Source: Bradyrhizobium uaiense
GTDB taxonomy: Bacteria > Pseudomonadota > Alphaproteobacteria > Rhizobiales > Xanthobacteraceae
DNA: 64,000 nucleotides
Direction: 5' to 3'
Assembly (NCBI RefSeq): GCF_010811875.1
Contig: NZ_VKHP01000016.1
Span: 1-64,000, forward strand
Under the pieces are notes generated by a model that saw nothing but the letters and a program-made list of their open reading frames with translations, searched no databases and had not been told where the DNA came from. This document shows positions 18,242 to 20,086 of the stretch, piece by piece. Each line of letters starts with the position of its first letter. The stretch's first letter is position 1. A program made the position numbers and the translations under genes.

Positions 18242-19150
<909 letters not shown>

Positions 19151-19165
<15 letters not shown>

Positions 19166-19223
19166 AGTTCCTATCAGTTTTGCCGCACCCTCTTCATAGG
19201 AACTTCAAACTCCAATGCCGCAC
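19151..19223. repeat. Inverted duplication of the ABC-ATPase gene end
   Basis: GTGCGGCAAGTTTGAAGTTC (from 19151, including the stop codon) reappears inverted at 19196-19223 as ATAGGAACTTCAAAC, four extra bases, then TGCCGCAC. A further TTGCCGCAC at 19180-19188 in the loop can pair with the first arm instead, giving alternative structures. Confidence 0.85.
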
Positions 19224-19239
19224 CAGAATCATAAGTTTT

Positions 19240-19314
19240 CTAGCGCTCCTTCGATTTCGAAGTTCGCATCGGAGGCTCCCCAAAAGCATGCGAACTTCGA
19301 AATCAGAGCGCTAG
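19240..19314. repeat. Large perfect-stem hairpin before the ABC permease gene
   Basis: CTAGCGCTC (19240-19248) and GATTTCGAAGTTCGCAT (19253-19269) are inverted as ATGCGAACTTCGAAATC (19288-19304) and GAGCGCTAG (19306-19314). It ends 10 bases before the permease ATG, so it covers the leader and could affect readthrough or translation. Confidence 0.85.
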
Positions 19315-19324
19315 TGAGGGCGCC

Positions 19325-20086
19325 ATGAACTACCGCGCAATCCGGGCGATCTATCTGTTCGAAATGGCGCGCACGTGGCGAACGCTGCTGCAGAGCATCG
19401 TCTCGCCCGTGGTCTCGACGTCGCTGTATTTCGTGGTGTTCGGCGCCGCGATCGGCTCGCGCATCACCGAGGTCGAGGGCGTCAGCTACGGCACGTTCAT
19501 CGTGCCCGGGCTCGTGATGCTGTCGGTGCTGACCCAGAGCATCTCCAACGCCTCGTTCGGCATCTACTTCCCGAAATTCGCCGGCACGATCTACGAGATC
19601 CTGTCGGCGCCGATCTCCTATCTCGAGATCGTCATCGGCTATGTCGGCGCGGCCGCCACCAAGTCGATCATCCTCGGCCTGATCATCCTGGCGACCGCCG
19701 GACTGTTTGTACCTCTGCACATCCAGCATCCGGTATGGATGCTGACCTTCCTGGTGCTGACCGCCGTCACCTTCAGCCTGTTCGGTTTCATCATCGGCAT
19801 CTGGGCCGACGGCTTCGAGAAGCTGCAGATGATTCCGATGCTGGTGGTAACGCCGCTCACCTTCCTCGGCGGCAGCTTCTATTCGGTGAACATGCTGCCG
19901 TCGGGCTGGCGCACCATCACGCTGTTCAATCCGGTGGTCTATCTGATCTCCGGCTTCCGCTGGAGCTTCTACGAGATCGCCGATGTCAGCGTCGGGCTCA
20001 GCCTCGGCATGACCGCGGGCTTTCTGATCGCCTGCTTGATGATCGTGGCCTGGATCTTCAGGACCGGTTACCGGCTGAAGAACTGA
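19325..20086 (+). CDS. ABC-2 type transporter permease
   Basis: Inner-membrane permease (253 aa) with six hydrophobic segments, YadH-like. Conserved features are [20 protein letters not shown] near the N-terminus, the re-entrant [19 protein letters not shown] region and the late [17 protein letters not shown] followed by [18 protein letters not shown] lies just before the ATG. It forms an exporter with the upstream ATPase. Substrate unknown. Confidence 0.9.

Follow-up and report, generated by a model that had tools for sequence, protein, structure and literature searches.

We analysed a window of 64,000 nucleotides from Bradyrhizobium uaiense (contig NZ_VKHP01000016.1 of assembly GCF_010811875.1), in which the ATPase and the permease genes of an ABC exporter follow each other on the forward strand (Table 1). 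The permease starts 159 bases downstream of the ATPase end. The two large hairpins that the original prediction had placed between the genes were confirmed by folding: the region 19120-19330 reaches -97.5 kcal/mol, compared to -53.4 +/- 4.1 kcal/mol in 200 dinucleotide shuffles, none of which is as low (z -10.7). The first hairpin is indeed an inverted copy of the end of the ATPase gene, and an extra TTGCCGCACC is present in its loop. The nine letters TTGCCGCAC that had been singled out do have a third copy in the loop, but the 3' arm reads ATGCCGCAC and matches them at 8 of 9 positions. In the second hairpin the perfectly paired stems of 9 and 17 bases are present as proposed, and 10 bases separate its end from the permease ATG at 19325. 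The predicted end of the feature at 19314 holds, whereas its start at 19151 has to be moved three bases upstream, to the true edge of the element at 19148, where the left end (19148-19151) reads CTGG and is paired with CCAG. What had been missed is that the two hairpins and their linker form a single dispersed element, and that relatives exist which lack it.

Table 1. Features at the junction of the exporter genes (positions in the window).
Feature	Position	Strand	Basis or remark
ABC transporter ATPase	18242..19165	+	PF00005; start ATG read from the sequence, earlier GTG in the ORF list
Whole double-hairpin element (167 nt), fitting an IS630-type non-autonomous repeat	19148..19314	+	Covariance model, empty orthologous loci
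Hairpin 1 (79 nt)	19148..19226	+	5' arm contains the last ATPase codons and the new stop codon
Loop segment TTGCCGCACC	19180..19189	+	Complementary to the 5' foot of hairpin 1 (alternative pairing)
GAATC, a GANTC (CcrM-type) site where hairpin 1 meets the linker	19226..19230	+	
13-nt linker AATCATAAGTTTT joining the hairpins	19227..19239	+	Pattern common to the family
Hairpin 2 (75 nt)	19240..19314	+	3' end 10 bases before the permease start
Outer CTAG (target motif), right end	19311..19314	.	Outer ends elsewhere mostly CTAG
ABC-2 type permease	19325..20086	+	PF01061

The suggestion to look for the hairpins at the same site in relatives proved informative. In 28 of the 30 orthologous loci recovered by our first search of relatives the site is empty, and the ATPase stop and the permease start overlap as ATGA. 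The ATPases of relatives, with this overlap, mostly end in RAP* or RTS*. The C-terminus of the ATPase in the window reads LVRQV* rather than LVRAP* or similar, RQV* and the stop codon being supplied by the insert. Seven distant outgroup loci have a readable junction, which is ATGA in five, TGATG in one and a short gap without the element in one (L352). Judged by these junctions, the window element is an insertion that abolished the ATGA overlap, and removal of the overlap should end translational coupling.

A dispersed family of double hairpins

The original prediction had allowed that the hairpins may simply be repeats, and had proposed a search for them elsewhere in the genome. This was borne out: the window element is a member of a dispersed family of transposable double hairpins, and related units are found in the same genome and at many unrelated places. 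Using the linker and the flanking CTAG as a query, we found a second copy in this genome without linker mismatches, whose arms differ from those of the window copy and are equally long and nearly as complementary, as well as a third copy with two linker mismatches. We also built a covariance model from 56 diverse copies, all selected by a GANTC-containing linker pattern with up to three mismatches. With the model, no fewer than four full copies, plus a partial one, are detected in this genome, and in the window the element is its sole match (model R1; 156 bits on the plus strand and 107 bits on the minus strand).

In the genus the linker pattern gave 50 matches in 15 of 265 genomes, compared to a single match for the reversed pattern, and the covariance model recovers further genomes that the pattern missed. 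A linker scan of named public genomes found at least 115 stretches. Among the 80 matches listed, most are alphaproteobacteria by title, including Hyphomicrobium, Methylocystis, Mesorhizobium, Phyllobacterium, Acidiphilium, Rhodoplanes, sphingomonads and others, and a few, such as Bacteroides (L120), resemble chance matches. The covariance model has matches in 16 of 289 genomes of the class, and in 12 of 299 genomes of a phylum sample, all 12 of which belong to this order or genus. Because few candidates were scored per genome (nine in the class and phylum searches with the model, three in the genus search with the window copy and at most 40 in high-copy genomes), the copy numbers, as well as the 13 genomes in which the exporter site is filled, are lower bounds. 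At first look G236, G253 and G090 had 382, 130 and 141 candidates, respectively, 40 of which were scored in each. Carriage by plasmids or viruses was rejected: the window copy was not found in plasmids, and a search of viral contigs with one linker pattern gave no match.

Among the collected loci, both hairpins are present in 133 of 148 deduplicated linker matches and 15 lack this arrangement. The 133 intact copies are 145-195 nt long, most of them 163-173 nt, and contain no transposase. Their typical layout is CTAG-hairpin-CTAG-linker-CTAG-hairpin-CTAG, and either hairpin carries a small bulge of a few bases on its inner side. Across the 56 copies of the model 97.0% of the cells are paired, and both partners have changed in 39 of 50 pairs, with 521 doubly changed cells compared to 134.9 in shuffles. 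Across alphaproteobacteria the family thus keeps its structure, while much of its arm sequence turns over in concert. Wobble pairs occupy only 59 of 2795 cells, compared to 84 mismatches, and without four pairs that are ragged or rich in wobbles 19 of 2573 cells, compared to 45. This scarcity of wobble pairs fits arms that are maintained as inverted repeats of DNA rather than as RNA. As regards a preference of insertion for stop codons, an in-frame TAG with at least 100 open codons occurs at 65 of 240 element ends, compared to 83 of 480 in shifted frames, which is a modest excess.

A number of loci depart from this layout. Tandem copies share one CTAG in L078 and L156, and L080 has three hairpins and two linkers; these arrays give the impression that the CTAG ends of existing copies served as targets for later ones. 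A compact form with the same two-arm layout, 121-133 bases long and with loops of 3-4 bases, occurs in G344 and G562 (L361-L366). In G133 the second hairpin of a type-A element (L075, around 1498 on the reverse strand) is interrupted by about 100 bases of other sequence. The copy at 452-618 of L187 starts 17 bases after a gene for bacterial small SRP RNA (339-435). Membership in an Rfam family was considered and rejected: the window gives only sub-threshold matches to miRNA families, and in 15 loci with copies no match at gathering score lies over any copy, the only such match being the SRP RNA beside the copy in L187.

IS630-like ends and relation to known repeats

The DDE_3 profile, which is typical of IS630, detects 11 loci in this genome, two in G236 and none in either G253 or G090. 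In three of the 11 loci the transposase hit lies between inverted ends that start with CTAGTG, 1137-1211 bases apart, and a 376-aa ORF of one of these loci is IS630 (NF033545, 4.4e-80). Five of these ends agree with the outer arm of the type-A repeat in 22 to 28 of 31 bases; the window copy belongs to a divergent subtype. The conserved arm positions common to the family and the IS630 ends are CTAGTG, GA, T and C. In its architecture of two hairpins and a short linker, the window element fits an IS630-type (Tc1/mariner group) non-autonomous repeat. To judge from the matching ends, it was most likely mobilised in trans by an IS630 transposase recognising CTAGTG...GAnnTTCG. Since G253 and G090 contain many copies and yet no DDE_3 hit, mobilisation in these two genomes would be old or due to something else. 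In a scan of the first-collected loci for an autonomous version, end pairs were found only in L156, which has tandem copies, and in L213, where they are 332 bases apart. Just inside the right end of the IS630 in L237 lies AATCATAGATTCG, which is close to the family linker AATCATAnnnTTG, and the linker may derive from a subterminal IS630 sequence of this kind.

In part, the insertion sites fit an IS630-type element as well. Among the 128 copies away from the window site, the left outer end is CTAG in 108 and the right one in 113. For the second copy of this genome the empty site in a relative (G004) is a single CTAG, and at another insertion site this CTAG closes the gene in 8 of 17 relatives. 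The window site is less regular: its left end reads CTGG, both CTAG and CTAGTG are absent from all 28 empty alleles, and an ancestral CTAG is an assumption there. According to the title of one paper, IS630 reportedly prefers the TA in CTAG. For ISY100, a relative of IS630, duplication of TA upon insertion has been shown, as stated in an excerpt of PMC2170065.

The family is best filed among the IS630-type non-autonomous repeats. It shares the CTAGTG...TTCG ends with the IS630-family insertion sequences of this genome and differs from them in that it has no transposase gene and four end-like arms instead of two. A comparable repeat is RUP of Streptococcus pneumoniae, which the available sections of PMC2229807 and PMC3049150 describe as 107 bp long, with IS630-Spn1 as the proposed mobiliser and TA as the target. 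By that account the two have in common that they are small repeats with IS630-like ends and a TA target. However, each half of our element forms its own hairpin and its hosts are alphaproteobacteria, whereas in non-CIR repeats a stem loop arises by pairing of the 5' and 3' ends (PMC2229807, same sections).

CIR, a repeat of Caulobacter, Brucella and other alphaproteobacteria, is described in the same excerpt as two long inverted repeats that comprise two arms and a linker, with TA termini and GANTC sites; it is about 110 bp long, has GANTC at the terminal loop and is listed without TIRs (PMC2229807). As far as this description goes, the likeness extends to the two arms, the linker, the TA ends and GANTC. 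The differences are that our family is mostly about 165 bp long, has GANTC mainly in the linker and hairpin 2, and carries IS630-like ends. At least one GANTC is present in 54 of the 56 representatives: in the linker in 48, a number inflated by the linker-based selection, in hairpin 2 in 33 and in hairpin 1 in 9. Counting the hairpins alone, there are 1.27 sites per element compared to 0.60 in shuffles. By its length, short variants of 121-133 bases included, and by the main location of GANTC in the representatives, the family does not match CIR. Compared by description, the two are possibly of the same lineage.

RIME consists of two palindromes. It is an intergenic repeat of Rhizobium and Sinorhizobium (PMC2573895, in excerpt), and resembles our family, by description, as an intergenic rhizobial repeat. 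ERIC, Correia and BIME elements are transcribed into hairpins that can alter the expression of neighbouring genes via attenuation, RNase E or RNase III, and intergenic hairpin repeats of other families attenuate, destabilise or direct the cleavage of transcripts, according to the accessible part of PMC3049150. The likeness, again by description, is that these are hairpin repeats in operons; their hosts differ. Having searched the open-access literature, we make no claim to the first description of CTAG-tagged double hairpins.

History and stem constraint at the exporter site

A genus search with the window copy matched 26 of 265 genomes at 1e-20, and at least 13 have the element at the exact junction. 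These 13 site copies form one clade relative to 21 others (support 95/99; 93% of bootstraps), which argues for a single insertion at the exporter. In the gene tree, which contains 12 filled and 37 empty rows, loci with and without the element are intermingled, so that a minimum of six changes is forced; when the tree is rooted with L356, one gain requires 13 losses. Left out of this tree were L336 (permease start not matched), L009 (the same as L322), six of 15 outgroup loci without a usable junction, and also five distant outgroup rows. In pairwise comparisons of five filled loci the identity of the element falls with that of the genes, from 0.982/0.973 for the closest to 0.905/0.876 for the farthest pair, as expected for vertical descent. 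Since it was lost repeatedly, the exporter element is not needed. Its presence, absence and stem integrity can be traced at this site through a genus.

We then compared rates of change. In 11 orthologous copies, all compared with this genome as the one shared reference and thus not independent, 0-8.7% of the stem bases, 4.8-24% of the unpaired bases and 6-33% of the four-fold sites are changed. The stems have changed at least three times more slowly than four-fold sites, and they lie below them in all 11 comparisons (p 0.0044 or less). In 10 of the 11 comparisons unpaired bases changed slightly less than four-fold sites, significantly so in one (G075, p=0.042). A twelfth copy (G113) is decayed and was omitted from the four-fold comparison. 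When stems are compared to unpaired bases, with gaps omitted from the pair counts, p is below 0.05 in 9 of 12 cases, the exceptions being G131 (0.052), G175 (0.14) and the decayed G113 (0.21). Moreover, the 13 site copies contain eight pairs that changed on both sides (12 cells), compared to 1.6 pairs in shuffles; further pair types are not above shuffles (67 of 500). The GAATC where hairpin 1 meets the linker is retained in 11 of the 13 copies.

The stem constraint is not special to the exporter, because a site at dinB (PF00817) shows the same, with 0 of 96 stem bases and 8 of 70 unpaired bases changed. At two younger sites 12 of 480 stem cells and 5 of 334 unpaired cells are changed, figures that comprise few changes and shared references. 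Five compensatory pairs are seen at a site next to dapF (PF01678) that is identified by one flank, and L161/L179 are uninformative (1 of 102 stem and 2 of 67 unpaired bases changed). Among the control rows, those of L080 and L156 overlap and represent a single locus, and the assignment of L095/L183 and L333/L338 is based on one flank. These sequence comparisons suggest selection on the exporter-site hairpins, and one other old site looks alike. At the exporter the constraint is real, if not unique, and selection is the likelier, not the sole, reading of it.

The copy at dinB, shared by L339-L341, sits at the 5' end of a gene resembling dinB (ORF L339:216-1526:-). In the listed reading frames the start of this gene falls inside hairpin 2 of the element, so that the repeat may supply the start codon.

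Candidate roles of the exporter-site element

We lean, at a little better than an even chance, towards the view that an old IS630-type double hairpin, moved in trans, split the exporter gene pair and that its stems were kept as a putative control of permease output. An IS630 transposase would have moved the repeat into the ATPase-permease junction. By comparison with relatives, the insertion split the ATGA-overlapping pair, ended the ATPase in RQV* and placed 159 bases between the genes. In most lineages with the element the stems are largely undamaged, and the loops have drifted about like four-fold sites. The most probable cause would be that the transcribed double hairpin sets permease output relative to the ATPase, by a route in which translational coupling is removed and the intergenic mRNA is protected or processed. 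An effect of the element on expression, such as the tuning of the permease that the original prediction had offered, is plausible in view of the lost ATGA overlap, the slow stems and the compensatory changes; the repeated losses and the conserved stems at dinB speak against it. If the constraint is functional, the site would provide a clear natural example of a transposon remnant turned into an operon control element, and the site offers ready-made controls in the empty relatives and the decayed copy.

The same transposable origin could also go along with no function at the exporter, the element being tolerated passenger DNA whose stems stay intact through DNA processes, namely correction of the arms by template switching or fewer mutations at paired bases. 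This fits a family in which the arms change together as DNA and wobble pairs are rare, as well as the conserved stems at the dinB site and the repeated loss, which suggests dispensability. However, arm correction alone would be expected to double changes rather than to lower the rate of stem substitution, stem changes at the two younger sites were no less frequent than changes at unpaired bases, and the loops are not hypermutable, since unpaired bases stay within the four-fold rate. We therefore see a passenger as a real possibility, if on the whole an unlikely one.

That the loop copy can compete for pairing, as had been predicted, holds in part. When 5' fragments of increasing length are folded, those of 46 to 65 nt from hairpin 1 adopt an alternative hairpin of -23.2 kcal/mol, which is later displaced by the full hairpin at -41.8 kcal/mol. 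At the exporter site, 9 of the 13 copies have a foot-loop run of eight pairs or more. However, the variability of the motif's columns is not significantly lower than that of the other unpaired columns (4 of 10 vs 31 of 54, p=0.49). The pairing is not clearly conserved, and a working switch is, on these folding predictions, possible. An RNA that evolved as a dedicated attenuator or switch of the exporter operon, with the competing pairings as the switch, could draw on the early fold and on the foot-loop runs. It is at odds with the occurrence of related units at many unrelated genomic places rather than in one operon, and with the family at large: hairpin 1 has runs of at least eight in only 4 of 133 copies, all of them among the five from the exporter site, and in 0 of the 128 tested copies away from it. 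Moreover, no promoter or terminator match was found in the ATPase-permease gap. Such a dedicated RNA seems decidedly improbable to us. In hairpin 2, one of the 133 copies has a foot-loop run that reaches 11.

A bolder form of the capture that we favour would combine both lines. A parasitic double hairpin would have been captured once, early in Bradyrhizobium, as a structural control element of the exporter operon. Translational coupling would have given way to a folding RNA, in which an early 46-nt hairpin at the last ATPase codons is later displaced by the full hairpin, and this folding would set the permease dose. Captured copies of the family might then be a recurrent source of regulatory RNA, with the dinB copy as a second candidate. 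We regard this as speculative and unlikely to hold as a whole.

Another origin for the element would be a REP/BIME-type repeat that owes its mobility to a Y1 (RAYT) transposase. The two palindromes in mirror orientation and the conserved tetranucleotide do resemble BIMEs, and in G236 a full copy (L243, 1185-1353) lies about 150 bases from a Y1_Tnp gene. However, Y1_Tnp (PF01797) has no hit in this genome (G000) or in G090, both of which have copies. G236 has five hits and G253 two, and only one of these seven Y1 loci has a copy within 1500 bases, which by our estimate is about chance given the density of copies in G236. The ends and the target of the family match IS630, and CTAG is absent from the accessible part of a paper on GTAG/CGTC REPs. 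A Y1/REP transposase was rejected as the carrier because Y1 genes are missing or mostly distant, and a REP/BIME origin is extremely improbable. The copy in L243 is the single finding that points to another carrier; nineteen other transposase loci gave no match to the covariance model.

Finally, in one filled locus (L321 of G249) the permease start is now GTG and the right CTAG is altered; none of the other 12 filled loci has such a start.
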